A DNA stretch of 29,797 nt, from positions 1 to 29,797 of the IMG/VR virus record IMGVR_UViG_3300043468_000751. One strand, 5' to 3'. Within the stretch, counting starts at the first letter, position 1, and each line of letters starts with the position of its first letter. The position numbers and the translations under genes were made by a program. Shown piece after piece: positions 1,020 through 18,792 of the stretch. The notes beneath the pieces were generated by a model. It had not been told where the DNA came from. It ran no database searches and saw nothing but the letters and a program-made list of their open reading frames with translations. Source of the stretch: a virus.

Positions 1020-1036
1020 GTTGTTGAAAGCGAAAC
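1020..1036 (-). promoter_or_regulatory. recurrent regulatory site R1 (minus-strand orientation)
   Basis: On the minus strand the site reads GTTTCGCTTTCAACAAC followed directly by ATG (1019-1017). It matches the site at 5559-5575 at 13 of 17 positions, including the following ATG. It lies between the GapR-like gene and the 74-residue gene and points toward the latter. The ATG is out of frame with that gene, so it is not a start codon. It is one of the weaker members of the set, with only the outer three bases forming a dyad. Confidence 0.45.
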
Positions 1037-1043
1037 GATCAGG

Positions 1044-1298
1044 TCACGCGAAAGGATCAAGGCCGAGTGCGGCGGCATACGTCGCCAGCAATTCGTTCTC
1101 TTCCTTGCGCTTGGCCTCGTCCTTGAGACGAATGGCGATCAGCTTGCGGATCGTCTTCGTGTCGAAGCCGTCGCCCTTGGCCGCGTCGAACAGTTCCTTG
1201 CGGTCCAGCGTCAGCGAATGGATCTCGGCGTTGACGCGCTCGATCCGCTCGACGTGCTGGCGCAGGGCTTCGCCCGAGTTGGACTTCTCGACGGTCAC
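1044..1298 (-). CDS. GapR-like DNA-binding protein (DUF2312/UPF0335)
   Basis: This 84-residue protein matches the DUF2312 family in length and order: an N-terminal helix with LRQHVERIERVNAEI, then DRKELFDAAKGDGFDTKTI, then RKLIAIRLKDEAKRKEENEL and a final short helix. The family founder, GapR of Caulobacter, is a nucleoid-associated protein that clamps overtwisted DNA ahead of replication forks and transcription and stimulates topoisomerases. The family is essentially alphaproteobacterial, so it hints at the host. The gene overlaps the upstream ssDNA-binding protein gene by four bases, and the two sit in a recombination/replication operon, so a role on phage DNA is reasonable but inferred. 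The C-terminus is LGLDPFA. Confidence 0.85.
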   Translation of the reverse strand: MTVEKSNSGEALRQHVERIERVNAEIHSLTLDRKELFDAAKGDGFDTKTIRKLIAIRLKDEAKRKEENELLATYAAALGLDPFA

Positions 1299-1909
1299 TT
1301 GAACAGGTCGTCAGCGTCCTTCGCCGACCCTCCCGCGTCCGTGACCGCCTCGAACTCGTCGGCCGCTTCGGCCCGCGAGCCGCCGCCCAGCCGTTCGCCG
1401 TCGGCCAGCTTCTGGACGTTGTTGAGCTTGAAGCTGATGCCCATGCCGTCGGCGCGGTCGTAGGCCATCGCCACGATCGACGCGCGGTAGTACGCACCGC
1501 TGTAGCATTCCTTCTCGTCGATGATGGCTTCCTTGCCGCCGTTGATGACGTCGGGCGCCTGCTGGCTCGTCGTCATCTTGATCGTCGTCTGGCCTTCCTC
1601 GAAGCCCGCGTAGAGCTCGCCGGCCTTGTTGACGTTCGTGGCGCCGTCCTTGAAGGGCGAGCGGAACTTGGGGTGCTTGAGGACGGTCGCGGCCTTGTCG
1701 CCCCAGCACTTCTTGGCCGCTTCCATCGCCGCGTTCTTGAGGGCCCCGATGTCGACGCCCTTGTCGAAGATGGCCGTGCAGCCCCAGACCTTCTTGGTCT
1801 TGCCCGTCACCTGGTCCGTCTGGATCTCGGGCTCGAAGAAGCGGACGAAGGCCCCGCGGAACTTGGGCGTGATGACCTTCTCGCTGTACTCGTAACGCTC
1901 TTTCGCCAT
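1295..1909 (-). CDS. ssDNA-binding protein, DUF2815 family
   Basis: The 204-residue protein has the hallmarks of the DUF2815 family, which was structurally defined as the phage Enc34 single-stranded-DNA-binding protein. These are an N-terminal strand region with TPKFRGAFVRFFEP, a middle segment TIKMTTSQQAPDVING, and GAYYRASIVAMAYDRADGMGISFKLNNVQK, followed by a flexible acidic tail ending DADDLFK, like the acidic tips of bacterial and T7 SSBs. It should coat single-stranded DNA in replication and recombination. It lies directly downstream of a DUF2800 nuclease, the usual phage pairing. The start ATG at 1909 is preceded by AAAGG and by CACAAC-ATG, which resembles one half of the recurrent regulatory site. 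Confidence 0.88.
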   Translation of the reverse strand: MAKERYEYSEKVITPKFRGAFVRFFEPEIQTDQVTGKTKKVWGCTAIFDKGVDIGALKNAAMEAAKKCWGDKAATVLKHPKFRSPFKDGATNVNKAGELYAGFEEGQTTIKMTTSQQAPDVINGGKEAIIDEKECYSGAYYRASIVAMAYDRADGMGISFKLNNVQKLADGERLGGGSRAEAADEFEAVTDAGGSAKDADDLFK

Positions 1910-1954
1910 GTTGTGTCCTTTGTCGATCTGTCGCTTCGGTCTATTTGTGAGTTG

Positions 1955-3079
1955 TCACGCGGCGCCGAAGTCCTCCGCTGCGGAGTTGCGAGCCTGCGCC
2001 GCAGGCCGCTTGTCCGATTCGTGCACCAAGGTCAGGCCGCTCGACTCCGCGACCGTCAGCCCGGCGATCTGCTTCTTCCCGGTCTTGCCGAGCAGCTTTT
2101 CGACTTTGGCCGGGGAAAGCAGGGACCGGGGCTCGTAGATTTCGTCGGCGGCAAGCACCAGTTCCAAGGCGCTGGCAGCTTCGTTCTCGTCGCGCCACTT
2201 GCGGGTCGCCCGCTTCTCGACGAGCTTGAAGCCCGCCGGCGGCCGGCCGGCGATGGCTTCCTCGAACGCGAACTCGCGGGTCGCTTTGATCCACGTCTCG
2301 ATGAGCGGGATCTTGTCGAGGGCCGCCGCCAGTTCTTCGGGCTTGTAGGCGAGGCCGGGGGCGAAGTCCTGCCGTGCCACCTCGAGCGACTGCGCGCGGA
2401 GAGCCGGGCAGATGGCTTTCGCCGGGCACCAGCGGCAGTGGTCGCCGGGATTGAGGGCCGCACCGTCCCGCTTCGTGGCCGCTATCGCTTCGAGCACTTT
2501 GTCCTCGAAGTCCAGAAGCTCAAAGCCGTCGAAGGCCCAGCGTCGGACAGGGCCGTCCGGGTGCTCGCAGCGCGGCTGCACGATCATCAACGTGACCTTG
2601 CTGATGCCGCGGTTCGAGAGGTGCTTGGCCTTCATCAAGCCGTAGATGAGGGCCTGGGGGTTGTTCTCGACCTCGACCGGAACGCCCTTGCCGTGCTTGT
2701 AGTCGGCGACCAGCAGCTCGCCGGTCGACGGCCGGTAGCGCACGAAGTCGGCCGTGCCCCAAAGGTCGTCGCTGTATTGGAGCCGCTGCTCCACGTCCCA
2801 GTCGTCGCCGTCCTGGATCTCGGCGCGCACGGCGTCGATGTAGACGTACACGGCTTCCAGCATCTCAGGCGTGACCGGGTTTCCCTTCGGCGTCTTGAGT
2901 TCGCCGAAGGATCCCGTGAACTCGCCAGTCAGGATGCCTTGTGCCACCCAATGGGCGTCGGTGCCCTCGTCGGCGAACACCGACGATCGGTTCTCGACGC
3001 CCTCTGACAACCTTGGTTGTCCGGGGCACGACATCCAGATTTTGGACGCCGAGGGGGAGAGGCGGGCGTGCTCGCTCAA
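1955..3079 (-). CDS. DUF2800 PD-(D/E)XK nuclease with Cas4/AddB-type cysteine set
   Basis: The 374-residue protein belongs to DUF2800, phage exonucleases of the PD-(D/E)XK superfamily. Visible motifs are EGTDAH (His43), GTADF (Asp111) and VADYKHGKG (Asp126, Lys128), matching the catalytic H-D-(D/E)XK layout. One cysteine near the N-terminus (Cys18 in SCPG) and three after the nuclease core (Cys215, Cys218, Cys224 in CRWCPAKAIC) reproduce the spacing of the iron-sulfur cluster of Cas4 and AddB nucleases. It probably resects phage DNA ends for recombination with the DUF2815 protein encoded next to it. The start at 3079 overlaps the upstream stop by four bases. The cluster is inferred from residues only. 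Confidence 0.87.
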   Translation of the reverse strand: MSEHARLSPSASKIWMSCPGQPRLSEGVENRSSVFADEGTDAHWVAQGILTGEFTGSFGELKTPKGNPVTPEMLEAVYVYIDAVRAEIQDGDDWDVEQRLQYSDDLWGTADFVRYRPSTGELLVADYKHGKGVPVEVENNPQALIYGLMKAKHLSNRGISKVTLMIVQPRCEHPDGPVRRWAFDGFELLDFEDKVLEAIAATKRDGAALNPGDHCRWCPAKAICPALRAQSLEVARQDFAPGLAYKPEELAAALDKIPLIETWIKATREFAFEEAIAGRPPAGFKLVEKRATRKWRDENEAASALELVLAADEIYEPRSLLSPAKVEKLLGKTGKKQIAGLTVAESSGLTLVHESDKRPAAQARNSAAEDFGAA

Positions 3080-3537
3080 GGCGCCAGGTCCTTCGTCATC
3101 TGGTCGATGAGGGTGCCGTACTTCTCGGGCGGCACGTCGGAGATGCGCGCGGCGCCGACGGTCTCGACCAGCTTGGCCCGCAGGGCGTCGATCCCGTACT
3201 TCTCGGAGAACGCCTTCATCGCGTTCTTGGCGTCGTCGAGGGTGTAGGCCTTCGGTGGCTCGACGGCGGGGGCGGGCGCCGGCTCCGGTTCGGCCTGCAT
3301 CGCCGGCGGCAGCGGATCGCCCTTCTCGACGTCGAGCGGCGCGACCTTCGCCTTCTCGACCACGATGTCGTCGGCGGCGACCTTGCGGGGCCGGCCGGGG
3401 CGGGCCTTGGTCTGGACGGGCTCGGCAGCGGCGGGTTTCGGGAGTTCCGCGGCGATCGTGAAGCCGGGGTTGGCGTTGCCGAAGTGGGCCAGCATCTCGT
3501 CGACGCTGGCGAAGGAAAGGGTGACGTTGACCTGCAT
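3076..3537 (-). CDS. hypothetical protein with an AT-hook-like motif, 153 aa
   Basis: The N-terminus (MQVNVTLSFASVDEMLAHFG) resembles small phage proteins of recombination operons. Residues 46-52 (RPGRPRK) form an AT-hook-like basic motif. A proline/alanine-rich linker (about 80-97) leads to a C-terminal helical domain, DAKNAMKAFSEKYGIDALR, ending near DQMTKDLAP. The layout suggests a DNA- or protein-binding adaptor; the molecular role is unknown. The ATG at 3537 was chosen because GAGGGAG precedes it and because the frame upstream has no phage-like sequence. A recurrent regulatory site at 3578-3594 points toward this gene, so a promoter for the distal operon may lie there. Confidence 0.75.
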   Translation of the reverse strand: MQVNVTLSFASVDEMLAHFGNANPGFTIAAELPKPAAAEPVQTKARPGRPRKVAADDIVVEKAKVAPLDVEKGDPLPPAMQAEPEPAPAPAVEPPKAYTLDDAKNAMKAFSEKYGIDALRAKLVETVGAARISDVPPEKYGTLIDQMTKDLAP

Positions 3538-3577
3538 GGTTGCTCCCTCTGAGTGGGTAAAACTACTCATACAACAT

Positions 3578-3594
3578 GTAGCGAAATTCGCAAC
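3578..3594 (-). promoter_or_regulatory. recurrent regulatory site R2 (strong palindrome, minus orientation)
   Basis: On the minus strand the site reads GTTGCGAATTTCGCTAC followed by ATG (3577-3575). The two half-sites match at 7 of 8 positions around a single central base, making this one of the best dyads in the set. It lies between the 232-residue gene (ends 3597) and the AT-hook-like gene (starts 3537). The ATG that follows opens only ATG TTG TAT GAG TAG, so it is not a gene start. Confidence 0.65.
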
Positions 3595-3596
3595 AA

Positions 3597-4295
3597 CTAA
3601 TTTTCGATATTTGCGTAGGCGTCGCGGATCTTGTCCCTCATGAGCCGGGTCGCCATCTCGTCGATCGAATCCGCCACGCAGTAGAAGTCGACGTAAATAT
3701 TGGCGAATGTCGTCTTGCGGAGCGTCAGGTCGATGGCCCGGCGGACCAGCCCGACGTTGAGCGGGAAATTGTGGAACTGGACCTCGAAGCACCGCCGAAA
3801 GTCGGCCTGGTAGACGTTGGGCGAGGTGAGAACGCCGACATGGCCCAGCCCGACGCGGACCTTTTGGTTCTGGTTGAACTTCGTCATCCGATTCTTGAAT
3901 TTCCACGGCTCCATCCCGCCGAAGAAATGCGCGCAGCCGTAGTCGGCCCACGCGAAGCCGGCCCAGCGTTGGATGTTGTGGTGGACGAACCAGACAAATG
4001 GCCGGGCGATCGTGTTGTTGTAGAGGCCGCGCCGAACGTGGTCGATCATCGACTCGGCTTTCGTCTGGGCGTAGGTCGCCCAGAAGCCCGACTTGAATCC
4101 CGGGTCGCCGATCTCGCGTGCCTCGAGATGCTCGCGGAACCGACGCGCAGCGCCCGTCGCCTCCCATCGGCGGATCTTGTCGAGCCATTCGGGGGCGGCG
4201 GTTTCGATGGGCCTGAGAGGCTTGACGCGCAGGATGAGGTTGGGGCTACGCGCCGAGGGCCGTCCGACCGTCGATGAGGGCTGATCCGTATTCAC
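3597..4295 (-). CDS. hypothetical protein, 232 aa (GTG start)
   Basis: I do not recognise a function. The protein is rich in aromatic residues: RPFVWFVHHNIQRWAGFAW, YGCAHFFGGMEPWKFKNRM and FANIYVDFYC. It looks globular and soluble, with no signal peptide or membrane segment. The start is GTG at 4295 (GTG AAT ACG), preceded by an AGAGCA-type sequence, and it overlaps the upstream gene by 50 bases, an unusually long overlap for this operon. A start further inside is possible, but no ATG is available in the first third. It sits between the dNTP diphosphohydrolase/79-residue pair and the recombination genes, which suggests an early DNA-metabolism role, by position only. Confidence 0.65.
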   Translation of the reverse strand: MNTDQPSSTVGRPSARSPNLILRVKPLRPIETAAPEWLDKIRRWEATGAARRFREHLEAREIGDPGFKSGFWATYAQTKAESMIDHVRRGLYNNTIARPFVWFVHHNIQRWAGFAWADYGCAHFFGGMEPWKFKNRMTKFNQNQKVRVGLGHVGVLTSPNVYQADFRRCFEVQFHNFPLNVGLVRRAIDLTLRKTTFANIYVDFYCVADSIDEMATRLMRDKIRDAYANIEN

Positions 4296-4485
4296 GGGCT
4301 TGCTCTGCGTTCTTTAGGACGATGGCGCTGTGGACCAGCACGGCGAGCGTTGTGAGCCCCTGGCGGTTGAGGTCTCGGATCTTGACGTCCGGATTCTGGC
4401 GGACGAGGGCACGGAAGAACTCGGCGGCAGCGTCGGCGCCGGCTTTGGTCTGCTCGGCCTGCAGTTCATCGTCCGACTTGCTCAT
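4246..4485 (-). CDS. hypothetical protein, 79 aa
   Basis: Unrecognised. The protein is predicted helical throughout: MSKSDDELQAEQTKAGADAA, AEFFRALVRQNP, then LNRQGLTTLAVLVHSAIVLK and AEQAREYGSALI. It has no cysteines and no obvious metal-binding residues. The start overlaps the stop of the dNTP diphosphohydrolase gene by four bases (4482-4485), so the two are likely co-translated and could act together; that is an inference from spacing. Confidence 0.65.
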   Translation of the reverse strand: MSKSDDELQAEQTKAGADAAAEFFRALVRQNPDVKIRDLNRQGLTTLAVLVHSAIVLKNAEQAREYGSALIDGRTALGA

Positions 4486-4853
4486 GGCCGGTCGTCATTG
4501 AGCTTCTGGTGCTTCGCTGCGTCGATGATGATGGAGAGGCACGCGATGGCGTGGGCCAGATGCGACTGCCCCGATTCCGGGTCGCAGTTCTCGCCGTCCC
4601 ACCACGCCATCAGATGGCGCAGCGCTGCCGCCTGGTAGACGCTCGACGAGACCGCGTGCTCACGCCAGTTGTACGGGCCGTACTTCTTGGCACCCAGACC
4701 GAAAACGTTCGCGACTTCCAGCAGAGCCGAAGGCGGGACCAGGTGCATCGGCGTCTTCTGTACGCCGAACGCAGTCTTCGGATTGGTGTCGGGAAGCTGT
4801 GCTCCGTCGAACGCGAGCACACGGTCCGCTCGGCTCTCCTTATCGGGAAGCAT
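4482..4853 (-). CDS. dATP/dGTP diphosphohydrolase-like protein (DUF5664 type)
   Basis: The 123-residue protein carries the sequence pattern of the phage family annotated as dATP/dGTP diphosphohydrolase. It has KTPMHLVPPSALLEVANVF (Glu46), GAKKYGPYNW (about 55-63), RHLMAWWDGENCDPESG (His80, Asp86, Glu88, Asp91, Glu93) and SHLAHAIACLSII. The acidic helices would hold the metal ions of an all-alpha MazG-like fold that cuts dNTPs to dNMP and pyrophosphate. The ATG at 4853 was chosen because the family begins shortly before the KTPMHL block; it overlaps the RuvC-like gene by 14 bases. With the HD enzyme at the left edge it makes two predicted dNTP-removing enzymes in one operon. Confidence 0.8.
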   Translation of the reverse strand: MLPDKESRADRVLAFDGAQLPDTNPKTAFGVQKTPMHLVPPSALLEVANVFGLGAKKYGPYNWREHAVSSSVYQAAALRHLMAWWDGENCDPESGQSHLAHAIACLSIIIDAAKHQKLNDDRP

Positions 4854-5310
4854 GGACGACTCCGTAATAAGCGATGAGGGCGGCTTCGGCCCGGCCGTCA
4901 TGTTTGACGAGGGGCCAAAGATGTGAAAAAGCTGGGAGCAATTGGGACGCACGGGCCCGGGCACCCTCTTTGGACGCCGGCACGCCGAGCTTCGACTTCC
5001 ATGTCTGCGGCGGTACGAGGGTAATGGGCACGAAGTTGGCGGCGAGGACGCCGCGGACGAGGCCGTAGGAAACCCCGAAGCCGAACATCGACACCGAGCC
5101 GTTCCCCGGCATCGCACCGACCTTCTCGACAAAAGCGTGGCTGATGGCCTCGGTTCCGTTGAAAAGCCGGGCCAAGGCCGCTTCGTCAACGACCCGTTTT
5201 GACTTCACACCGGATGCAATCGTCGGCATGTCGTGTACAGTGACAACTCCGGCGCGAACATCAAAGAAAGCCAGAGCGCCATTCAGTCCGGGATCTACGC
5301 CGAGGATCAA
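4840..5310 (-). CDS. RuvC-like Holliday-junction resolvase (TTG start)
   Basis: The 156-residue protein has the RuvC/RNase H-like nuclease signature: ILGVDPGLNGALAFF (Asp6), SHAFVEKVGAMPG (Glu62) and the C-terminal KHDGRAEAALIAYYG (Asp138, Glu142). These correspond to the four acidic catalytic positions of RuvC. It should resolve branched phage DNA before packaging or during recombination, together with the DUF2800 nuclease and the ssDNA-binding protein. The start is TTG at 5310, sharing bases with the TGA of the Cro-like gene (TTGA); no ATG lies near the family's usual N-terminus, and GAGGA is present upstream. TTG plus overlap implies low, coupled expression. Confidence 0.88.
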   Translation of the reverse strand: MILGVDPGLNGALAFFDVRAGVVTVHDMPTIASGVKSKRVVDEAALARLFNGTEAISHAFVEKVGAMPGNGSVSMFGFGVSYGLVRGVLAANFVPITLVPPQTWKSKLGVPASKEGARARASQLLPAFSHLWPLVKHDGRAEAALIAYYGVVHASR

Positions 5311-5522
5311 GGCGCCCAGTCCTCGGCGGTGAGGGAGATGCCTGCGGAAACAGCAGCAGCCTGCACCTTTTCGACGCACGACGACGGGATGACCCCGCCG
5401 GTGCCGCCCTTCTCCTTCGAGTAGGTCCACTTATAGACCCGCGACGGATCGAGGGCCGCCAAGTGCGCGAGACGCCGAGCCCCGCCGAATTTCTGAAGGA
5501 TTTTGGCCGCTTGCTGGTGCAT
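5307..5522 (-). CDS. Cro/YdaS-like HTH regulator
   Basis: The protein shows the compact Cro/YdaS-type helix-turn-helix: ILQKFGGARRLAHLAALDPS, then RVYKWTYSKEKGGTGGVIPS, a layout common in lambdoid immunity regions. It probably competes with the divergent CI-like repressor. I place the start at the ATG at 5522 (MHQQAAKIL), where this family normally begins. The frame is open to an ATG at 5558, but that ATG is part of regulatory site R3 and has no Shine-Dalgarno sequence. It is the first gene of the left minus-strand operon, and its stop overlaps the RuvC-like start. Assignment as Cro is from position and fold. Confidence 0.8.
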   Translation of the reverse strand: MHQQAAKILQKFGGARRLAHLAALDPSRVYKWTYSKEKGGTGGVIPSSCVEKVQAAAVSAGISLTAEDWAP

Positions 5523-5558
5523 CTGTCCGCGAAAGCCGTGGTTGAGGAACAGATACAT

Positions 5559-5575
5559 ATTGAGGAAATCGAAAC
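5559..5575 (-). promoter_or_regulatory. recurrent regulatory site R3 and candidate early-left promoter
   Basis: On the minus strand the site reads GTTTCGATTTCCTCAAT followed by ATG (5558-5556). TTGACT lies three bases upstream (5584-5579), and CAATAT, a plausible -10, starts 16 bases after it, so the site fills the spacer of a candidate promoter for the Cro-like gene and the left operon. A repressor bound here would block that promoter. Dyad symmetry is weak; membership rests on similarity to R1 (13 of 17). Confidence 0.5.
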
Positions 5576-5585
5576 GCTAGTCAAG

Positions 5586-5600: not shown

Positions 5601-5633
5601 CCGCCAGAGGTGTAAAATGGTCCTTGACGCCGT

Positions 5634-5650
5634 GTGGAAAAAATCGCAAC
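5634..5650 (+). promoter_or_regulatory. recurrent regulatory site R4, upstream of the CI-like gene
   Basis: The site reads GTGGAAAAAATCGCAAC followed by ATG TAA, so the ATG cannot start a gene. TTGACG lies four bases upstream (5624-5629). It matches the strong R2 palindrome at 13 of 17 positions when R2 is read on the plus strand. It sits 37 bases before the CI-like start and would allow autoregulation. Confidence 0.5.
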
Positions 5651-5686
5651 ATGTAACCGTTCTAAACTACACACAGGGAGGCGGAC

Positions 5687-6262
5687 ATGGCGATCGACAC
5701 ACGCTGGTTCCAGGACCGGGTACGCGATGCCGAGCTGTCCCAGAGCCGGCTGGCGAAGCTGCTCGACATCGACAAGTCGGCTCTTAGCCTCATGTTCAAC
5801 GGCAAGCGCGAGATGAAGATGGCCGAGGCCAGCCGCATCGCGGAGGTCTTGGCCCTGCCTCTCGACGAGGTGCTGGCGCACGCAGGCGTCAAGGTGCCGA
5901 AGGGCCCCTCGAGCGTGGCGGTCGTCGGTTCGGTCGACGCCAGCAACGAGATCCACAACAAGAAGGCCGGCACGCGCGTCCACACGCCGCCCGACCTGTC
6001 GAAGGACGCCGTGGCCGTGAGATGCGAGGACCGCGGGTCGCTGCTCTATGGCTGGACGTTCTTCTACGTCCCGCACGCTTCTGTCGCTGCGGACGCATTG
6101 GAACGGCTGTGCGTCGTACGGTTGGCGAACGGCGCCCAGTACCTCTTCGTCCCGTCGCGGGGCTTCGAACCTGGCGTCTACAATCTGCGGGGCCTCAACG
6201 GATTCTCGATGGACGGCCAGAAGATCACCGCCGCCAGCCCCGTTCTGCAGATCAAAACCTGA
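5687..6262 (+). CDS. CI-like transcriptional repressor, XRE HTH with S24-like C-terminus lacking catalytic lysine
   Basis: The 191-residue protein has an N-terminal XRE helix-turn-helix (about 17-40: SQSRLAKLLDIDKSALSLMF) and a C-terminal region laid out like the LexA/CI peptidase S24 domain. This region has EDRGSLLYGWTFFY (Ser118), then LCVVRLANGAQYLFVPSRGF and GVYNLRG. Where cleavable relatives carry the catalytic lysine (LxKxL in the strand after the NG turn) this protein has YLFVPS, and the usual GDSM box is degenerate. It may therefore be unable to self-cleave; this is inference from alignment by eye. GGGAGG precedes the ATG. It is the obvious candidate to bind the recurrent R sites. It is divergent from the Cro-like gene, the standard temperate-phage switch. 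Confidence 0.85.
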   Translation: MAIDTRWFQDRVRDAELSQSRLAKLLDIDKSALSLMFNGKREMKMAEASRIAEVLALPLDEVLAHAGVKVPKGPSSVAVVGSVDASNEIHNKKAGTRVHTPPDLSKDAVAVRCEDRGSLLYGWTFFYVPHASVAADALERLCVVRLANGAQYLFVPSRGFEPGVYNLRGLNGFSMDGQKITAASPVLQIKT

Positions 6263-6308
6263 CATCGGAAGCGCACCGAGGCGATAGGTGTTGACGCGCG
6301 GCGTCGAT

Positions 6309-6325
6309 GTTGCTAAAAACGCAAC
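6309..6325 (+). promoter_or_regulatory. recurrent regulatory site R5 and candidate early-right promoter
   Basis: GTTGCTAAAAACGCAAC has a perfect 5-bp outer dyad (GTTGC/GCAAC) and abuts the ATG at 6326. TTGACG at 6291-6296 is 17 bases from TAAAAA (6314-6319), giving a good promoter whose -10 lies inside the dyad. Transcription would then begin at about 6326, at the start codon itself. Confidence 0.65.
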
Positions 6326-6526
6326 ATGACGAACGAACCGGAATACCTCACCCCCGAAGAGCTGGCGGCCCGCTGGCGCAACTGGATCCATCTCGACACC
6401 CTGCGCTCGTGGCGCACGAAGAACCGGCGCCGCGGGCCGCCGTTCATCAAAGTGGGGCAGCGCGTCCTATACCCGTTACGCGACGTCAAGCTGTGGGAGC
6501 AGTCGATGCGGGTGGAGGGGCTGTGA
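6326..6526 (+). CDS. small HTH DNA-binding protein (AlpA/excisionase-like)
   Basis: The 66-residue protein is a single winged-helix-like HTH_17 domain: YLTPEELAARWRNWIHLDTL, RSWRTKNRRRGPPFIKVGQR, then VLYPLRDVKLWEQS. This is the pattern of AlpA/excisionase-type regulators. It could act as an early regulator or excisionase. No Shine-Dalgarno sequence precedes the ATG, which abuts regulatory site R5, and the predicted promoter places the transcript start at or next to it, so the message may be leaderless. It is the first gene of the rightward early operon. Confidence 0.8.
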   Translation: MTNEPEYLTPEELAARWRNWIHLDTLRSWRTKNRRRGPPFIKVGQRVLYPLRDVKLWEQSMRVEGL

Positions 6527-6947: not shown

Positions 6948-7275
6948 CCCCGATCCCGAGTTGGTCGAGAAGGTGGCGGCCCCTGTGCTCGCAATCATCG
7001 CTCGCGAGGTCTACTGCGGCCAAGCACCCGAAGCGCCCGCCGACCACCCATGCAAGGCAACGTGGCTGCCCTACAAGCGTCGTTGCCCCGAGTGCCCGCT
7101 GCACCACACGCAGCGCGCGGACCTTGCTGCCGAGATCGCCCGCGCCGCCATCGCCGTCTGCTTTGAGGCGCGGGTGCCGGAAGCCGAGCGCGTCCTGGAC
7201 CGGTTCAACGAGCTCCGGCGCACGACCGGCGCGTCCGACGTGATCTGCATGCGCCAGGCGCTGGGCTCAAAATGA
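6940..7275 (+). CDS. hypothetical protein, 111 aa, with Cys/His cluster
   Basis: Function not recognised. A cluster of metal-type ligands lies in the middle: YCGQ, HPCKATW and RRCPECPLHH, suggesting a small zinc site. The rest is helical (QRADLAAEIARAAIAVCFEA). It overlaps the polymerase gene downstream by four bases (ATGA). Its position directly before a polymerase lacking its N-terminal half raised the question whether it is the missing part, but it shows no exonuclease or thumb motifs. Confidence 0.65.
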   Translation: MADPDPELVEKVAAPVLAIIAREVYCGQAPEAPADHPCKATWLPYKRRCPECPLHHTQRADLAAEIARAAIAVCFEARVPEAERVLDRFNELRRTTGASDVICMRQALGSK

Positions 7276-8222
7276 ACATCGACGAAACCCTCGACGCGAT
7301 CGACAACCTCTACGGCCCGCCGCTCCAGGTCATCAGCGATTGCCTGCGCGCCATGATCGTCGCGAAGGACGGCCACGATCTCATCGCCGCCGACTTCGCC
7401 AACATCGAGGGCCGTGTCCTCGCATGGCTGGCGGGCGAGCAGTGGAAGGTCGATGCGTTCAAGGACTATGACGCCGGCACGGGCCCGGACCTCTACAAGC
7501 TGGCGTATGGCCGCGCCTACGGCCTCGAGGCGAAGGACGTCACGAAGGACCAGCGCCAGGTCGGCAAGGTGATGGAGCTCGCCCTCGGGTACCAAGGCGG
7601 CGTGGGCGCCTTCCAGACGATGGCCCGCGGGTACGGCGTCAAGATGGCCGACGAGCAGGCGGACGACATCAAGACGAAGTGGCGCGCGGCCCATCCGAGG
7701 ATCAAGCAGTTCTGGTACGACCTCGAGAACGCAGCCATCGCGGCCACGGTCGACAAGGGCGAGGTGAAGCGCGTCGGCAAGATCATGTTCAAGAAGGCAG
7801 GGTCGTTCCTCTGGTGCCGCCTGCCGAGCGGTCGGAGCCTCTGCTATCCGTATCCCCGCGTGGCCGAAGTTGAAGTCCCGTGGACCAACAAGGACGGCAG
7901 CCAAGCGACGAAGCCGACGCTGTTCCATTGGGGCGTCGACCCGGTGACGAAGCAGTGGGGCGAGGACTCCACCTATGGGGGTCGACTGGTTGAAAATGTG
8001 ACTCAGGCCGTTGCGCGCGACATTCTTGCGGCGGCCTTGTTTCGATTAGACAAACATGGTTATAATATATGCATGCATGTACATGATGAGTGCGTGCTTG
8101 AGGTTCCACACGGTTGGGGTTCTGTCGATGAAGTCTGCCGCATCATGTCTCAACCGCCCGGATGGGCGGAAGGATTGCCAATCGCTGTCGAAGGATACCG
8201 GTCCAAGCGATACCGCAAATGA
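7272..8222 (+). CDS. PolA family DNA polymerase, palm/fingers part only
   Basis: The 316-residue protein has all three family-A polymerase motifs: motif A AADFANIEGRVLAW (Asp41), motif B RQVGKVMELALGYQGG (Arg95, Lys99, Tyr107) and motif C CMHVHDECVLEV (His271, Asp272). It therefore should hold the nucleotidyl transfer site. Phage relatives with this sequence are usually about twice as long, with an N-terminal 3'-5' exonuclease and thumb; here the protein starts only 40 residues before motif A. It is either half of a split polymerase or a truncated one. From about 7980 the codon use shifts, and 8041-8100, encoding motif C, is only 22/60 GC, next to a homing endonuclease gene. The stop lies inside that gene. 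Confidence 0.85.
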   Translation: MNIDETLDAIDNLYGPPLQVISDCLRAMIVAKDGHDLIAADFANIEGRVLAWLAGEQWKVDAFKDYDAGTGPDLYKLAYGRAYGLEAKDVTKDQRQVGKVMELALGYQGGVGAFQTMARGYGVKMADEQADDIKTKWRAAHPRIKQFWYDLENAAIAATVDKGEVKRVGKIMFKKAGSFLWCRLPSGRSLCYPYPRVAEVEVPWTNKDGSQATKPTLFHWGVDPVTKQWGEDSTYGGRLVENVTQAVARDILAAALFRLDKHGYNICMHVHDECVLEVPHGWGSVDEVCRIMSQPPGWAEGLPIAVEGYRSKRYRK

Positions 8223-8754
8223 GCGGTGGACTGTCGTAAAAGGGTACGAGGGCCGCTACGAGGTCAGCGATCAGGGGCGAGTGCGGTCTGTTGCGCGCAT
8301 GGCTACCGTTCGCCGCGGGGCCAAAAGCCACCTTCGCCCGATCGCGCCGAAGGTGATCGCCCCGACGCGACACCCCGGCGGGTACGCCAAATATTTGCTC
8401 TACGACGGCGCGGGCTATGAGAATCGCTACGGCCACGAGCTTGTTCTGACTAACTTTGTCGGGCCGAGGCCCTTCGGGGCGCAAGCGTGCCACAACAACG
8501 GGATCAAGACAGACAACCGGCTTGTGAATCTCCGGTGGGACACGCCGGCGGCCAACCAAGAGGACCGCGAGAGCCACGGCACCGGCCGCCGCGGAAAGCC
8601 CCACCCGATTAAGACGCTGACGAGACGAGAGGTCCGTATCATCCGGGCGCTGGCGGGGGCCATGAGCCACGGCGACATCGGGCGACTTATCGGCCGCCCA
8701 AGGACAACAGTTTCCGATATCGTGCGCGGCCGGACGTGGAAAAACTTTGCCTAA
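8128..8754 (+). CDS. NUMOD4-HNH homing endonuclease
   Basis: The product has a NUMOD4 module (NERWTVVKGYEGRYEVSDQG, about residues 31-50), an HNH_3-type nuclease core (GHELVLTNF, ACHNNGIKTDNRLVNLRW with His122, Asn123) and a C-terminal helix-turn-helix (TRREVRIIRALAGAMSHGDI, then TTVSDIVRGRTW) for DNA recognition. Such free-standing endonucleases cut the homologous site in related phages and spread by repair. I placed the start at the ATG at 8128 because no ATG, GTG or TTG is available closer to the NUMOD4 module; the gene then overlaps the polymerase by 95 bases. Its C-terminus (KNFA) lies in a 34-bp repeat shared with the end of the methyltransferase gene. Confidence 0.82.
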   Translation: MKSAASCLNRPDGRKDCQSLSKDTGPSDTANERWTVVKGYEGRYEVSDQGRVRSVARMATVRRGAKSHLRPIAPKVIAPTRHPGGYAKYLLYDGAGYENRYGHELVLTNFVGPRPFGAQACHNNGIKTDNRLVNLRWDTPAANQEDRESHGTGRRGKPHPIKTLTRREVRIIRALAGAMSHGDIGRLIGRPRTTVSDIVRGRTWKNFA

Positions 8755-8779
8755 GCAGTTGTGAAAGGCACAACATGAA
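8746..8779 (+). repeat. 34-bp perfect direct repeat, copy 1
   Basis: This copy covers the last two codons and stop of the HNH gene, regulatory site R6 and the start of the methyltransferase gene. It is identical over 34 bases to 9966-9999, exactly 1220 bases away. The repeats bracket the methyltransferase gene so that recombination between them would delete it cleanly and leave the primase-helicase gene with an intact site and start. Confidence 0.9.
8758..8774 (+). promoter_or_regulatory. recurrent regulatory site R6, abutting the methyltransferase start
   Basis: GTTGTGAAAGGCACAAC has a perfect outer dyad GTTGT/ACAAC, a compensated change from the GTTGC/GCAAC of other sites, and abuts the ATG at 8775. 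It also contains GAAAGG at Shine-Dalgarno distance, so a protein bound to DNA here, or the RNA dyad itself, could influence both transcription and translation. Confidence 0.65.
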
Positions 8780-9974
8780 TCCGTTATCGGAAATAATCGA
8801 AGGCGACAGCCGGCATATTCTCGCCACGCTCGCAGAGTCCAGCATCGACTCCGTCGTCACCGACCCGCCTTACGCCCTCGTCAGCATCACGAAGCGATTT
8901 GGTTCCGAGGACGCGGCGCCGGCGAAGGGTGACGTGTACGCGCGGGCTGCAGCCGGCTTCATGGGAAAGAAGTGGGACACGGGCGAGACGGCCTTTGACC
9001 CGCTGTTCTGGCGTGAAGTGCTGCGCGTGTTGAAACCGGGCGGCCACTTGCTGGCGTTCGGTGGGACGCGAAGCTATCACCGGCTCGCTGTGGCCGTGGA
9101 GGACGCGGGGTTTGAGATCCGCGACCAGATCGGGTGGCTCTACGGCTCGGGGTTTCCGAAGTCCCACAACCAAGGCAACGGCTGGGGCACGGCGCTAAAG
9201 CCCGCGTGGGAGCCGATCGTCCTCGCGCGCAAGCCGCTGATCGGCACCGTCGCGGCGAACGTGTCGGCGCACGGGACGGGGGCCATCAACATCGACGGGT
9301 GCCGCGTGCCGACCGATGAAAACTTGAACGGCGGGGCCTATTCTGCGGAGCGTAAGCCGAGCAACAGTGAATGGGTGAAGAACGGCGGCACCATCCACAA
9401 CAGCACCGGAAAGGACTATGTGCAACCAGCCGGCCGCTGGCCCGCGAACGTGATCCACGACGGCAGCCAGGAAGTGCTGGCGGCGTTTCCCGAAGCGCCC
9501 GGCCAGATGGCAAAGGCGGCCGAGGGCGGCGATCGGCGCAAGGACCAGAACGTCTACGGTGCGATGACGCGCGGGTCCAACGGGGCCGAGCCACGCGAGG
9601 ACAGCGGCTCCGCCGCCCGGTTCTTCTACTGCGCCAAGGCCAGCAAGTCAGACCGCAACGAGGGGTGCGAGCACCTGCCGAAGAAGCCGTCCGGCATGGT
9701 GTCGGAGACCAGTGGCCAGCACATAACCCGCCGCGACGGCGGCGCTCCCGGCCCGACCGCCAACCACCACCCGACGGTCAAGCCGACGGCGTTGATGCGG
9801 TATCTCTGCCGCCTCGTCACCCCGAAGGGCGGCACGGTCCTCGACCCGTTCATGGGGTCCGGCAGCACAGGGAAGGCCGCAGCACTCGAAGGCTTCAACT
9901 TCATCGGCATCGAACGCGAAGCCGAATATGCAGCGATCGCCCGCGCCCGGTTGGGCCTCGATCCGTTTGCCTAA
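8775..9974 (+). CDS. orphan DNA adenine/cytosine-N4 methyltransferase (N6_N4_Mtase)
   Basis: The 399-residue protein is a beta-type amino-methyltransferase: catalytic DPPY at 30-33 near the N-terminus (VVTDPPYALV), a WDTGETAFDPLFWREVLRVL segment with LKPGG, a long central region likely to read the target sequence, and the SAM-binding block HPTVKPTALM and DPFMGSGSTG (357-366). DPPY with this motif order fits N6-adenine or N4-cytosine modification. No matching restriction gene is seen, so it likely protects or regulates phage DNA. The start at 8775 follows GAAAGG. The gene is bracketed by a 34-bp direct repeat, suggesting acquisition as a cassette. Confidence 0.9.
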   Translation: MNPLSEIIEGDSRHILATLAESSIDSVVTDPPYALVSITKRFGSEDAAPAKGDVYARAAAGFMGKKWDTGETAFDPLFWREVLRVLKPGGHLLAFGGTRSYHRLAVAVEDAGFEIRDQIGWLYGSGFPKSHNQGNGWGTALKPAWEPIVLARKPLIGTVAANVSAHGTGAINIDGCRVPTDENLNGGAYSAERKPSNSEWVKNGGTIHNSTGKDYVQPAGRWPANVIHDGSQEVLAAFPEAPGQMAKAAEGGDRRKDQNVYGAMTRGSNGAEPREDSGSAARFFYCAKASKSDRNEGCEHLPKKPSGMVSETSGQHITRRDGGAPGPTANHHPTVKPTALMRYLCRLVTPKGGTVLDPFMGSGSTGKAAALEGFNFIGIEREAEYAAIARARLGLDPFA

Positions 9975-9999
9975 GCAGTTGTGAAAGGCACAACATGAA
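9966..9999 (+). repeat. 34-bp perfect direct repeat, copy 2
   Basis: This copy covers the last two codons and stop of the methyltransferase gene, regulatory site R7 and the start of the primase-helicase gene. It is identical to 8746-8779; flanking bases diverge on both sides (C versus G before, T versus C after), so the boundaries are sharp. Confidence 0.9.
9978..9994 (+). promoter_or_regulatory. recurrent regulatory site R7, abutting the primase-helicase start
   Basis: The site GTTGTGAAAGGCACAAC is identical to R6 and again abuts an ATG (9995) with GAAAGG at Shine-Dalgarno distance. Identical control of the methyltransferase and replication genes is implied if the site is functional. Confidence 0.65.
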
Positions 10000-13259: not shown

Positions 13260-13297
13260 TTCCTGTTTCCCTTTCATGTCTCGGTTTTCAGAACGGT

Positions 13298-14031: not shown

Positions 14032-14051
14032 TTGTGTTTCCATTTCCCTTG

Positions 14052-14216: not shown

Positions 14217-14241
14217 TTGTGTTTCCCTTTCCCTCGTTCCC

Positions 14242-14262
14242 AAACCGACAACGCGTCGGTTT
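14242..14262 (-). promoter_or_regulatory. leader hairpin of the accessory operon
   Basis: AAACCGAC and GTCGGTTT form a perfect 8-bp stem with a five-base loop. It lies downstream of regulatory site R8 and upstream of the first gene, inside the expected mRNA leader. It may protect the transcript, attenuate it, or be another operator. Confidence 0.4.
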
Positions 14263-14277
14263 ATGCAAACGATACAT

Positions 14278-14294
14278 ATTGCGTTATCCGCAAC
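14278..14294 (-). promoter_or_regulatory. recurrent regulatory site R8 and candidate accessory-operon promoter
   Basis: On the minus strand the site reads GTTGCGGATAACGCAAT followed by ATG (14277-14275), with the perfect dyad TTGCG/CGCAA. TTGACG lies one base upstream, and TATGTA is exactly 17 bases beyond it, so the dyad occupies the spacer of a candidate promoter for the 12246-14216 operon. The ATG is not a gene start. The 156-base gap 14217-14372 between divergent operons holds this site and the hairpin; I see no gene in it. Confidence 0.6.
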
Positions 14295-14372
14295 ACGTCA
14301 AGCGCCAATCGTCGCTTTTCCCGCGTCAACGTGCTAAACCTTTGAAATTGTCAATAACTTTTTGAGTGCGCC

Positions 14373-14864: not shown

Positions 14865-14870
14865 GGCCGA

Positions 14871-14923
14871 CCCCACCCCCGGCCTCGCGCTTCGATCGAC
14901 CGGGGGTGGGGGCGGGGGTGGGG
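14871..14923 (+). other. hairpin plus G-quadruplex motif between the terminase genes
   Basis: CCCCACCCCCGG (14871-14882) can pair with 14900-14911 as a perfect 12-bp stem. The right side continues as four guanine tracts of 5, 5, 5 and 4 bases separated by single T, C and T (14902-14923), an almost ideal parallel G-quadruplex. The hairpin and quadruplex are mutually exclusive. The 163-base gap 14865-15027 holds this element, regulatory site R9 and the large-subunit leader. It may be a terminator after the small subunit or a packaging recognition element. Confidence 0.65.
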
Positions 14924-14994
14924 CCAAAGTTTCGGCCGGCCCCGCGCTCTGCCCCCACCTTCGGAAATTTTCCTAGAGTTCCGCCGAGGTAATT

Positions 14995-15011
14995 GTTCCG
15001 TTTCTCGCAAC
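14995..15011 (+). promoter_or_regulatory. recurrent regulatory site R9 before the large terminase
   Basis: GTTCCGTTTCTCGCAAC is followed by ATG (15012), which opens an eight-codon frame (ATG GTA ... TAA) that overlaps the true start of the large terminase at 15028 out of frame. The right half TCGCAAC-ATG is identical to that of R4; the left half is degenerate. Confidence 0.5.
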
Positions 15012-15027
15012 ATGGTATGGAAGCCCG

Positions 15028-16569
15028 ATGGCCGCTAAGACGAAATACACGACGCGCGAAGAAGAGCAGTTGATGGCCCGCCTCTGGGCCGCCGACATCA
15101 AGGACAACCCGCTCGCCTTCGTCATGGCGGTGTTCCCTTGGGGCCAGCGTGGCACCCCGCTCGAGAACCAGACCGGCCCCCGCAAGTGGCAACGCGAAGC
15201 CCTCCTGCGGATCCGTGACCAAATCGCGGCGAACAAGAACCTCATCGCCAACGGCAAACAGCCGAAGATGCTCAAGCGGGCCACCTCGTCGGGCCGCGGC
15301 ATCGGCAAGTCGTCGCTGGTGTCGTGGCTCATTCTGTGGAACATGAGCTGCAATCTCGGTGCGACGACCATCGTGGCGGCGAACACGGAGGCCCAGCTCA
15401 AGAGCAGGACGTGGGCCGAGCTCGGGAAGTGGCACACGCTGGCGATCAATAGCCACTGGTTCGACCGCGACACAATGCAACTCAAGCCCGCTTCGTGGTT
15501 CCGAGAGGCATTGGAACGCGATCTCAAAGTGGACTGCGGGTACTATTACGCGATCGCAAACTTGTGGGTCGAGGACAACCCCGACGCTTTTGCCGGCGTC
15601 CACAACATGAACGGGGTGACGCTGATCTTCGACGAAGCGTCCGGTATCCCCCAGTCGATCTTCAACGTGGCCGAGGGCTTCTTCACCGAGCCCACGATCC
15701 ACCGATATTGGTTCTGCTTCTCCAACCCCCGCCGGAACACGGGCGCGTTCTTCGAGTTGTTCCACAAGTCACGGAACCACTGGGAAGGCATCTCGATCGA
15801 CTCCCGCACGGTCGAGGGCACGGACCTCGAGGTCTACCAGAAGATCATCGAGCAGTTCGGCGAGGACTCCGACGAGGCCCGCGTCGAGGTCCGGGGGCTC
15901 TTCCCTTCCCAGGGCGACAAGCAGTTCATCGGGTCCAAGCTGGTCGAGGGCGCGCAATCCCGCGAAGTGGCGCACGACCCGGGCGCCCCGCTGGCAATGG
16001 GGGTCGACGTCGCGCGGTTCGGGGATGACCAGTCCGTCATCTACTTCCGCCACGGCCGCGACGCCCGATCCCTGCCGCCCTTCAAGTTCAAGGGCATGGA
16101 CACGTCGCAGTTGGCGAACCGGGTGGCGGAACTGGCCGACAAGTACAAGCCCGACGGAATCTTCATCGACGGCGCTGGTGTTGGCGGGGGTGTCGTCGAT
16201 CAGCTCCGGTCGATGAAGTACAAGGTCTTCGACGTCCAGTTCGGCGCCAAAGCCGACGAAGAAATGAAGTACCTGAACAAGCGGGTGGAGTGCTGGGCCC
16301 GTCTCAAAGAGTGGCTGCTGTACGGCGCGATCGTTCCCGATACCGAACTGGCGGATGATCTCCTTGGCCCCGAGTACGAGTTCGACGGTCCCGGCCGCGT
16401 GAAGCTCGAGACGAAGGAGAAGATGAAGAAACGGGGGTTGGCGTCGCCCGACGTGGCTGATGCCCTGGCCCTGACGTTCGCCACGAACATGGGACGTCGG
16501 GATATGCGGTCTCTGGCCCGTCGTGTCGCGCGTATGGCGACCGGGCTGGACTATAATCCGCTGGGCTGA
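15028..16569 (+). CDS. terminase large subunit
   Basis: The 513-residue protein has an N-terminal packaging ATPase with Walker A SSGRGIGKSS (87-96) and Walker B TLIFDEASG (198-206, Asp202-Glu203), and coupling motif FSNPRRNTG. A C-terminal RNase H-like nuclease follows: GVDVARFGDD (Asp327), FIDGAGVGGGV (Asp381) and SPDVADALAL (Asp475, Asp478). Length is normal and all catalytic residues are present. It powers DNA into the procapsid through the portal encoded downstream. The start at 15028 is supported by GGAAG upstream. An eight-codon frame opening at 15012 ends just inside the gene and may affect its translation. Confidence 0.95.
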   Translation: MAAKTKYTTREEEQLMARLWAADIKDNPLAFVMAVFPWGQRGTPLENQTGPRKWQREALLRIRDQIAANKNLIANGKQPKMLKRATSSGRGIGKSSLVSWLILWNMSCNLGATTIVAANTEAQLKSRTWAELGKWHTLAINSHWFDRDTMQLKPASWFREALERDLKVDCGYYYAIANLWVEDNPDAFAGVHNMNGVTLIFDEASGIPQSIFNVAEGFFTEPTIHRYWFCFSNPRRNTGAFFELFHKSRNHWEGISIDSRTVEGTDLEVYQKIIEQFGEDSDEARVEVRGLFPSQGDKQFIGSKLVEGAQSREVAHDPGAPLAMGVDVARFGDDQSVIYFRHGRDARSLPPFKFKGMDTSQLANRVAELADKYKPDGIFIDGAGVGGGVVDQLRSMKYKVFDVQFGAKADEEMKYLNKRVECWARLKEWLLYGAIVPDTELADDLLGPEYEFDGPGRVKLETKEKMKKRGLASPDVADALALTFATNMGRRDMRSLARRVARMATGLDYNPLG

Positions 16570-16572
16570 TAT

Positions 16573-16589
16573 GTTGCGAAATCATCGCC
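16573..16589 (+). promoter_or_regulatory. recurrent regulatory site R10, degenerate
   Basis: GTTGCGAAATCATCGCC has a perfect left half and a right half displaced by two bases, followed by ATG (16590). It lies four bases after the terminase stop codon. It may drive or regulate the portal genes. It is weaker than R2, R5, R6, R7 and R8. Confidence 0.4.
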
Positions 16590-16610
16590 ATGTTTCGGAG
16601 TTCAAACCCT

Positions 16611-16820
16611 ATGGGTGGTTTCTTCTCGGCTCCAGCTCCCGCGGCCCCGCCGCCCCCGCCTCCCGCACCGACCACGGACACGGCGGCGGTCGAGGAAGCG
16701 GCGCGTCGTGAGCGCCAGGCCCGTGTCGCTGCGGGCGGTCGTGCCTCGACGATCCTGACGGGCGGGACCGGCGACACCTCGACGCCGGCGTCTGCCAAGG
16801 CCGCGTTGCTGGGCCAGTGA
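16611..16820 (+). CDS. proline-rich small head-region protein, 69 aa
   Basis: The protein begins MGGFFSAPAPAAPPPPPPAP, followed by a helix (AAVEEAARRERQARVAAGGR) and the motif ASTILTGGTGDTS, ending KAALLGQ. This combination (MGG-F, polyproline, RASTILTGG) is a recurring small phage protein between terminase and portal genes; its function is not known to me. I prefer the ATG at 16611 because CGGAG lies ten bases upstream and this is where relatives begin; an in-frame ATG at 16590 belongs to regulatory site R10. The stop overlaps the portal start by four bases. Confidence 0.75.
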   Translation: MGGFFSAPAPAAPPPPPPAPTTDTAAVEEAARRERQARVAAGGRASTILTGGTGDTSTPASAKAALLGQ

Positions 16821-18466
16821 TGGAAAACGACGACCTCGCATCCTCGATCACCCGGCGCCACGAAGAACTGGCGTCGATGCGCGTGACGTTCGAGTCCCAC
16901 TGGGAGGAGATCGCCGAGCGCGTCCTTCCCCGGGCGAAGGGGTCGTTCACCGGCCGCTTCTCGACGACGAACGTGATGCAGGGCGAGAAGCAGACGGAGA
17001 AGATGTACGACTCCACGGCGGCCATCGCCTTGGAGCGTTTCGCCGCCGTCATGGATTCGATGCTGACGCCGCAGAGCTCGAAGTGGCATCGGCTCCGCGC
17101 CGACGACAAGAACCTCAACCGCGACCCGATGGTCCTTCGTTACTTCGATGAAGTGACGGAACTGCTGTTCAAGTATCGCTACGCGCCCCGCGCTGGCTTC
17201 GCCAACCAGAACCACGAGCGGTACATGTCCCTCGGTGCCTTCGGGACCGGGACCGTGATGGTCGATCGCCTCGAGGGCGGTGGGCTCCGGTATCGCTGCA
17301 TCCCGCTCGCCGAGTTGTATCTGCTCGAGAACCACCAGGGCGTCATCGACACGGCGCACCGCCGCTACACGCTGACGGGCCGGCAGGCGATGCAGAAGTT
17401 CGGCAAGGACGCGCTGCCCGAGAAGATGTCGGAGCAGGCCGAGAAGAAGCCCGACAAGGAGTTCGAGTTCATCCATTGCGTCAAGCCCCGCGAGGATTTG
17501 AAGCCCGGCCGCATGGATTACCGCGGCATGGCGTGGGCGTCGTACCACGTCGCGATCGAGGGCAAGAAGGTCGTGCGCGAGGGCGGCTACCGGTCGTGGC
17601 CGTTCCCCACGGGCCGGTATGTGCAGGCCCCCGGCGAAATCTATGGCCGCTCGCCCGCGATGATGGTCCTGCCGAACATCAAGGTTCTGAACGAGCAGAA
17701 GAAGACGATGCTCAAGGTCGGCCACCGCGCGGTCGACCCCGTGCTGCTGGCCTTCGACGACGGCGTGGTCGACTCGTTCTCCCTGCGCCCGGGGGCTATC
17801 AACCCCGGTGGGCTGAACGCGCAGGGCCAGAAGATGATCCAGCCGCTCGACATGGCCTCGTCGAACCTCCTGCCGTTCGACAAGCTGATGGAGCAGGAGC
17901 GCATCCCGATCAACGATGTGTTCCTCGTCAACCTTTTCCAGATCCTCGTCGAGACGCCGCAGATGACGGCGACCGAGGTGCTGGAACGTGCGCGCGAGAA
18001 GGGGATCCTGCTGGGTCCGTCGATGTCGCGCCAGATGTCGGAATACCTCGGGCCGCTGATCGAGCGCGAGATGGACGTGCTGGCGGCCGACGGTCTGCTG
18101 CCCGAGATGCCGCCGCTTCTCCGCGAGGCTCAGGGCGAATACGCCATCGTCTACGAATCGCCCCTGTCGCGCCAGATGCGGTTCGAGGAGCTGACGGGTT
18201 TCAACCGGCTGCTGGAGCAGGCGGCGACGTATGCGTCGGCGACGAACGACCCGCGCATCCTCGATCATTTCAACTTCGACGAAGCCATCCCCGACGCCGC
18301 CGACATCCAAGGCGTCAAGCCCCGCTGGATGAACACGCCCGAGGTCGTCGCGCAGATCCGCGCCGGCCGTGAACAGCAGGCGGCGATCGCCCAGATGACT
18401 GCGGCCGCACCGGGTGCGGCTGCAGTCATCAAGGCCGTCAACGCCGGCGAACGTCCGAGTGGCTGA
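16817..18466 (+). CDS. portal protein (head-tail connector, podovirus type)
   Basis: The 549-residue protein has the head-tail connector family pattern: SITRRHEELASMRVTFESHW near the start, the conserved YDSTAAIALERFAAVMDSML and LTPQSSKWHRL block (about 57-95), GAFGTGTVMVD, a central stem region, and the C-terminal ETPQMTATEVLERAREKGIL helix with LGPLIEREMDVL. Twelve copies should form the ring at one capsid vertex through which DNA is pumped and to which the gp11-type protein binds. Length is typical. Coupling to both neighbours (ATGA at 16817 and TGATG at 18466) supports the start. Confidence 0.92.
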   Translation: MMENDDLASSITRRHEELASMRVTFESHWEEIAERVLPRAKGSFTGRFSTTNVMQGEKQTEKMYDSTAAIALERFAAVMDSMLTPQSSKWHRLRADDKNLNRDPMVLRYFDEVTELLFKYRYAPRAGFANQNHERYMSLGAFGTGTVMVDRLEGGGLRYRCIPLAELYLLENHQGVIDTAHRRYTLTGRQAMQKFGKDALPEKMSEQAEKKPDKEFEFIHCVKPREDLKPGRMDYRGMAWASYHVAIEGKKVVREGGYRSWPFPTGRYVQAPGEIYGRSPAMMVLPNIKVLNEQKKTMLKVGHRAVDPVLLAFDDGVVDSFSLRPGAINPGGLNAQGQKMIQPLDMASSNLLPFDKLMEQERIPINDVFLVNLFQILVETPQMTATEVLERAREKGILLGPSMSRQMSEYLGPLIEREMDVLAADGLLPEMPPLLREAQGEYAIVYESPLSRQMRFEELTGFNRLLEQAATYASATNDPRILDHFNFDEAIPDAADIQGVKPRWMNTPEVVAQIRAGREQQAAIAQMTAAAPGAAAVIKAVNAGERPSG

Positions 18467-18729
18467 TGTTTGAACGTCTCGTCGCGTTCCTGACTTCAAA
18501 GCACCAGGACTATGTGAAGACGTTCTCTGGCCCCGTGCCCGAGCGGGTGCTGGCTGACCTTGCAAAGTTCTGCCGGGCGACCGAGACGACGTTCCACCCC
18601 GACCCCCGCGTCCATGCCGTGCTGGAAGGCCGGCGCGAGGTGTGGCTGCGGATCCAGAAATACATGCGGCTGACGGCGGCCGACATCGACGCGATCGCCA
18701 AAAAGAATGGGGGCCAGAGCGAACTCTGA
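18466..18729 (+). CDS. Bbp19-like phage protein, 87 aa
   Basis: The sequence VPERVLADLAKFCRATETTF, HPDPRVHAVLEGRREVWLRI, QKYMRLTAADIDAIAKK matches the small helical proteins called Bbp19-like after Bordetella phage BPP-1, encoded next to the portal in this group of podoviruses. Their role in head assembly is not established. The start shares its A with the portal stop (TGATG). The family call is by pattern recognition only. Confidence 0.72.
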   Translation: MFERLVAFLTSKHQDYVKTFSGPVPERVLADLAKFCRATETTFHPDPRVHAVLEGRREVWLRIQKYMRLTAADIDAIAKKNGGQSEL

Positions 18730-18775
18730 CCCCCAAGGCTAGGAAGAAGGGAGGAACGATGCTTCGGGGAGAAGC

Positions 18776-18792
18776 GTTTCGATAATCTCAAC
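18776..18792 (+). promoter_or_regulatory. recurrent regulatory site R11 before the scaffold gene
   Basis: GTTTCGATAATCTCAAC matches the palindrome GTTGCGAAATTCGCAAC (R2 read on the plus strand, with the A of its left half changed to T) at 13 of 17 positions and resembles R3 (GTTTCGAT, CTCAA). It is the only copy not followed by ATG. It lies 17 bases before the scaffold start in the 80-base gap 18730-18809, a logical promoter position for scaffold and capsid. Confidence 0.5.

Follow-up and report, generated by a model that had tools for sequence, protein, structure and literature searches.

The DNA analysed here (the window) is the whole of IMG/VR virus record IMGVR_UViG_3300043468_000751, a linear 29.8-kb fragment (29,797 nt), and the most likely reading of its sequence is that it carries about nine dispersed copies of one operator, placed between genes. 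The site is a 17-bp dyad with the core GTTGCGATWATCGCAAC, and we consider it likely that its copies serve the phage's own immunity repressor as operators, with the CI-like helix-turn-helix (HTH) protein encoded at 5687–6262 as the binder. The window encodes a podovirus-like phage, with genes for a portal protein, TerL, a major head protein, a primase/helicase, a DNA polymerase, SSB, an exonuclease and the CI-like protein. We take this uncultured short-tailed phage to be probably temperate; the nearest signs of a temperate life style are an integrase encoded by the related phage G002 and a prophage in Nitrosovibrio sp. Nv4 (L056). An earlier note had listed eleven sites, R1 to R11, as a phage-wide operator set. 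All 11 sequences lie at the positions and on the strands it gave (Table 1), with an ATG directly after 10 of them, and the set is well supported by conservation in relatives, intergenic placement, the pair of sites at CI/Cro, CI-linked variants and fixed offsets from −35 boxes. The sites extend over the first ~19 kb of the fragment but are absent from the last 10 kb, so that the description 'spread over the genome' holds only in part.

Up to two mismatches from the plain consensus, the window contains 24 matches against 17.1 expected, which is not significant; because this enrichment is weak, stronger tests were used. We enumerated every 5-mer dyad with spacers of 2–11, with order-3 Markov controls and without supplying the motif. 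The leading dyad of the window was TGTTG-N9-CAACA (z = 8.9), and the same element led in an 80%-identical relative; ATGTT-N11-AACAT and GTTGC-N7-GCAAC came top in relative G004 and likewise in G005. All three are the same element, built on the core given above. A matrix trained on the relatives' sites alone placed R11, R5, R2, R3, R8 and R9 at ranks 1–6 in the window, with R4 eighth and R1 ninth; R6 and R7 (8.7 bits) and R10 (5.9 bits) were at noise level.

Applied to the relatives, the window matrix gave matches that were intergenic in 9 of 10, 6 of 7, 5 of 5 and 4 of 4 cases, in genomes with 12–24% intergenic DNA (gene calls in the unannotated contigs are crude and were made for this analysis); shuffled intergenic sequence yielded ~0.04–0.34 matches. 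The matrix scan of genome and relatives that the earlier note had proposed as a check returns matches that are almost all intergenic. The junctions that hold R1, R3, R4, R5, R8, R9, R10 and R11 carry a site in relatives too, and the R2 junction is matched in G005 by one with a counterpart site, GTTGCGATTTCCGAAAC, with TTGCGA-N16-TATAAG.

Table 1. Sites and regulatory genes in the window, with their counterparts in relatives ('relatives' matrix' is the one trained on the relatives' sites alone).
Feature	Position	Strand	Observations
R1 operator, GTTTCGCTTTCAACAAC	1020..1036	-	orthologue GTTTCGATTTCGACAAC at same junction in G005, without ATG after it; 13.0 bits, rank 9 (relatives' matrix)
R2 operator	3578..3594	-	-35-like TTGCGA inside; TATGAG 16 bp on; rank 3 (relatives' matrix)
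R3 operator, predicted Cro-side promoter TTGACT-N16-CAATAT	5559..5575	-	geometry shared by G004/G005, the L056 Nitrosovibrio prophage and G001
R4 operator, predicted CI-side promoter TTGACG-N17-CAACAT	5634..5650	+	G004/G005 orthologue keeps TTGACC-N17-CAACAT
R5 operator, centred on predicted -10 (TTGACG-N17-TAAAAA)	6309..6325	+	G004/G005: TTGACT-N17-TAAAAA with GTTGATAAAAACGAAAC
R6, doubtful member	8758..8774	+	Shine–Dalgarno (SD)-like GAAAGG 6 nt before ATG of methyltransferase gene; junction absent in G004
R7, doubtful member, R6 copy ahead of primase gene	9978..9994	+	same 34-bp block; GAAAGG again 6 nt before ATG
R8 operator, CTTGAC directly upstream	14278..14294	-	G004/L003 orthologues: GCTTGACA just upstream of GTTGCGGATATCGCTAC / GTTGCGTTTATCGCTAC
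R9 operator before terL	14995..15011	+	orthologues ATTGAGGTTTTAGCAAC in G004, ATTGCGGTTTTAGAAAC in L003
R10, degenerate copy of conserved operator, terL/next-gene junction	16573..16589	+	no promoter seen; relatives there: GTTGCGGTGACCGCAAC, GTTGCGCTGACCGCAAC, GGTGCGATGTCCGCAAC
R11, strongest operator, inside head-gene operon	18776..18792	+	26.2 bits, rank 1 (relatives' matrix); no promoter seen
Extra candidate GTTCTGAAAACCGAGAC	13278..13294	-	intergenic, ATG after it; 13.0 bits (window-trained matrix), 8.7 bits (relatives' matrix)
Weak extra candidate GATGGGAATATCGCCAC	19664..19680	+	18 bp after TTGACA, which is kept in 5 relatives; 10.9 bits (relatives' matrix)
CI-like repressor, 191 aa, HTH_3 and lambda/186 CI-like C-terminal domain	5687..6262	+	Pfam HTH_3 E 9e-8; AlphaFold model
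Cro-like small HTH protein	5307..5522	-	family start MHQQ at 5522; weak P22_Cro match, E 0.046

The motif recurs across many intergenic regions and also flanks the repressor gene, at R3/R4 and their orthologues and in G001, G003 and L056. In structural searches, the model of the CI-like protein (pLDDT 83) has as its best PDB matches a lambda–186 hybrid, lambda CI and 186 CI (Foldseek E 1.8e-7 for the hybrid and 1.2e-6 for lambda CI); its whole-chain TM is low (0.33), and C-terminal fragments match at a TMt of about 0.6. As modelled, the protein appears to join an N-terminal HTH to a CI-type C-terminal domain, the layout of lambda/186 CI-type repressors. Two operators occupy the divergent CI/Cro region in the window, in G004 and G005 (CI 79% identical to that of the window) and in the Nv4 prophage (37%), which belongs to an isolate. 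A CI-alignment scan of genome contigs had returned no relative, and a later portal scan led to this prophage; viral contigs scanned for the primase yielded no locus. The Cro-like and CI genes of the Nv4 prophage diverge around two dyads in an arrangement resembling R3/R4, with TTGACA-N17-TAACAT over GTTGTGATTTTCGTAAC on one side and, on the other, TTGACG-N17-TATCAT with ATGTTTCGAAAATCGAAACAT after it, and more intergenic dyads lie elsewhere in the prophage region.

Variation in the dyad accompanies variation in CI. Where CI is 36–41% identical, phages have variant dyads, both next to the CI gene and in gaps between other genes: G001 (36%) has GGTGC-N7-GCACC adjoining CI and at further gene gaps, and intergenic dyads were found with the window matrix in G002 and G003 (39% each). 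Cro-like homologues are encoded in L043, L044, L052, L056 and L037, and that of L039 starts at MHQQ. Phage MW202898 has GTTGATAATTTATCAAC near a Cro-like gene, with 5 matches against 1.9 expected and no clear phage-wide set.

Many sites also stand in a fixed relation to promoter-like sequences. Among 57 gene-oriented sites, many of them orthologous and hence not independent, TTGA/TTGCA boxes concentrate at two upstream distances: 9–10 bp, at 8 sites from five independent loci (0.53 expected), and 18 bp, at 5 sites (0.27 expected). At a distance of 9–10 bp, the operator takes up the promoter spacer, and the −10 element is formed by the last four operator bases plus AT (CAATAT, CAACAT, TAACAT, CACCAT), which accounts for much of the trailing ATG; judged from the sequence, the ATG at R3, R4 and R8 is more readily taken for the tail of such an element. 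In the 18-bp register the operator centre coincides with the −10 (TAAAAA, GATATT, GATAAA), and R2 represents a third arrangement, with the −35 within the operator. At R5 (6292–6330) the −10 TAAAAA places the predicted start at or adjoining the A of the ATG at 6326, and the 66-aa HTH gene that follows may be leaderless; G004 and G005 have ~23 nt extra here, with a ribosome site.

The trailing ATG is polarised with the neighbouring gene, at the right end of 9 of 11 sites in the window against 1 of 11 at the left, and elsewhere at 14 of 46 against 2 of 46. The sites had been called directional, which this polarity bears out but the half-site asymmetry does not, since its orientation is inconsistent in relatives. 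We agree with the earlier note that at several sites the ATG is not the real gene start. Relatives have lost or replaced it at R1 (site end CAACggt), R4 and R9 (both CAACATC) and R10 (CAACAAG), and since it is so often missing, the ATG does not serve as a start codon at these sites; the R3 ATG is not the Cro-like start either, as had been argued from the family start, which is conserved. We therefore dropped a start-codon or ribosome-site explanation for R1, R3, R4 and R8–R11.

From these patterns we infer binding, dimerisation, repression and roadblocking along the following lines. A dimer of the CI-like protein would bind the 17-bp dyad and, at R3/R4, control two promoters that diverge, one for Cro and early genes and one for CI. 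It would overlap the −10, spacer or −35 of host sigma70-type promoters at R5, R8 and R2 and block initiation, and at the sites where no promoter is recognisable (R10, R11 and perhaps R1 and R9) it might act as a stoperator-like roadblock to readthrough or cover weak promoters; for R10 and R11 the putative roadblock role is plausible. Early, replication, packaging and head operons would then be silenced in parallel in the lysogen, with the Cro-like protein probably competing for the same sites. More tentatively, and with the odds somewhat against it, a lambda/186-type repressor of this podovirus group may have become a genome-wide silencer: with one dyad set in a few fixed registers to sigma70 promoters, it would prevent initiation at many operons and, within the head operon (R10, R11), elongation, stoperator-like and evolved independently of the mycobacteriophages.

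Several observations count against a CI operator set. A recognisable promoter is missing at several sites, no integrase was found in the window record, itself a fragment, and R6 and R7 fit the set poorly. The covariation of CI and half-site comes from few phages, with about five CI types. In L052, a dyad set accompanies a Cro-like gene, and its assembly yielded no CI homologue beyond a weak HTH match. L052 therefore raises the possibility that Cro binds or shares the sites; were Cro the main binder, or an equal one with CI, the set would serve lytic-phase regulation across the phage and not immunity repression. The Cro-like gene does accompany sites in L043, L044 and L056 as well, but L055 and L058 have Cro-like homologues and no dyad set, and G001, with CI and sites, has no Cro-like match by tblastn. 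We regard this alternative as rather unlikely, though deserving of attention.

The position of the sites just upstream of genes and the conserved polarity of the trailing ATG would also suit promoters read by a factor of the phage itself (an activator, a sigma factor or a polymerase) encoded outside the window, with the ATG marking the start region. Such promoters are hard to reconcile with a symmetrical core, differing fixed registers to the TTGA(C)/TTGCA boxes and a divergent pair at CI/Cro, and the annotated window genes include no such polymerase or sigma factor; we hold this explanation to be improbable. Because the dyad adjoins start codons, and R6 and R7 contain an SD-like GAAAGG, GTTGC-N7-GCAAC could instead form a hairpin in mRNA leaders for processing or translation control. 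At R3, R4 and R8, however, the dyad lies between −35 and −10 and hence would not be transcribed from that promoter, and its A/T-rich centre is conserved, which makes an RNA element very improbable. Phages with different half-sites may infect different hosts, as might be expected if the phage had borrowed its sites from LexA or another host regulator. The Nitrosovibrio Nv4 genome has 5 exact matches, the prophage operator among them, against 5 for the reversed control; since the count does not exceed the control, the dyad is not a host regulon, and we give this idea very little credence. Operators of the CI-like repressor remain our favoured explanation.

R6 and R7 are two identical copies of one 34-bp block, TTTGCCTAAGCAGTTGTGAAAGGCACAACATGAA, that flank HNH endonuclease and DNA methyltransferase genes (8740–9999) between polA and primase. 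These genes are missing from G004, whose primase gene comes directly after polA with no site in between, and the region looks like an inserted cassette; R6 and R7 themselves may be ribosome-binding cassettes. The compensated change GTTGT/ACAAC in R6 and R7 had been taken as an argument for the dyad, a claim that fails: as both are copies of one block, the change is a single event, and we discarded it as covariation evidence. R10 is weak in the window yet strong at the orthologous position in relatives, and its membership rests on these orthologues. The R11 dyad is conserved in 6 relatives and its upstream flank is not; GCTTCGGGGAGAAGC (18761–18775), a small hairpin adjoining R11 upstream, was not seen at the equivalent place in relatives.

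Of the further matches, 19664 was downgraded, as the TTGA of its TTGACA overlaps the stop codon of 18810–19649. A strong dyad match at 8039–8055 (+), TQAVARDILAAALFRLDKHGYN, with ATGGTTATAAT after it, was dropped despite its high score, since it lies inside the polA coding sequence. Its conservation in G004 and G005 probably reflects coding constraint, and a double role as operator or promoter could be envisaged. The DNA polymerase open frame (7272–8222) is only 316 aa and matches the C-terminal part of phage polA; the remainder may be split upstream or missing. A gene at 1044–1298 (−) encodes a GapR-like DNA-binding protein (PF10073, E 2e-23), a family associated with alphaproteobacteria and so a hint about the host.

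Well-described dispersed operator sets come from few phages. The present one is traced across contigs of uncultured podoviruses and into the prophage of a nitrifier in culture; it comes with its linked repressor and with half-sites that vary naturally, which opens repressor–operator coevolution, immunity groups and the question of roadblocks to testing. It also offers a route to predicting, from metagenomic contigs, lysogeny and immunity to superinfection.

In lambda the operators, kept at OL/OR, are partial dyads of 17 bp. The window phage resembles lambda and 186 in its modelled repressor fold and its divergent CI/Cro region, and lambda in its type of operator, but its sites, about nine in number, are dispersed and reach the head genes. 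The S24 Ser/Lys self-cleavage pair is present in lambda CI and not in 186 CI; unlike lambda CI, the window CI lacks the conserved pair, no Ser or Lys beyond residue 70 being invariant across five CI homologues. Within the literature searched, no paper combined stoperators and podoviruses. The L5/cluster A stoperators, to which the earlier note had likened the set, are repressor sites that occur in large numbers in promoters and in the short gaps between genes, oriented with transcription (PMC9283540). The likeness holds for this arrangement but not for the type of site: L5 sites are 13-bp, asymmetric and monomer-bound, and the repressor C-terminal domain differs (PMC9283540), whereas the window has 17-bp dyads and a predicted lambda/186-type repressor. 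The sites are therefore not L5-type stoperators by descent. As to alignment with transcription, the trailing ATG of the window sites is polarised and the half-site asymmetry is not. Phage P1 has 22 dispersed 17-bp operators for one repressor, C1 (PMC8546580); its consensus ATTGCTCTAATAAATTT is asymmetric, unlike the dyads here, and the likeness drawn here concerns operator arrangement, 17-bp sites dispersed over the genome. SPbeta repeats its SPBRE element in promoter regions across the prophage, bound by the master repressor MrpR (PMC10516654), there with a 15-bp motif and a recombinase-fold repressor in contrast to the HTH_3 CI of the window. On its sequence features, the set described here would belong to the dispersed-operator kind, as in P1 and SPbeta, built on a lambda/186-type repressor.

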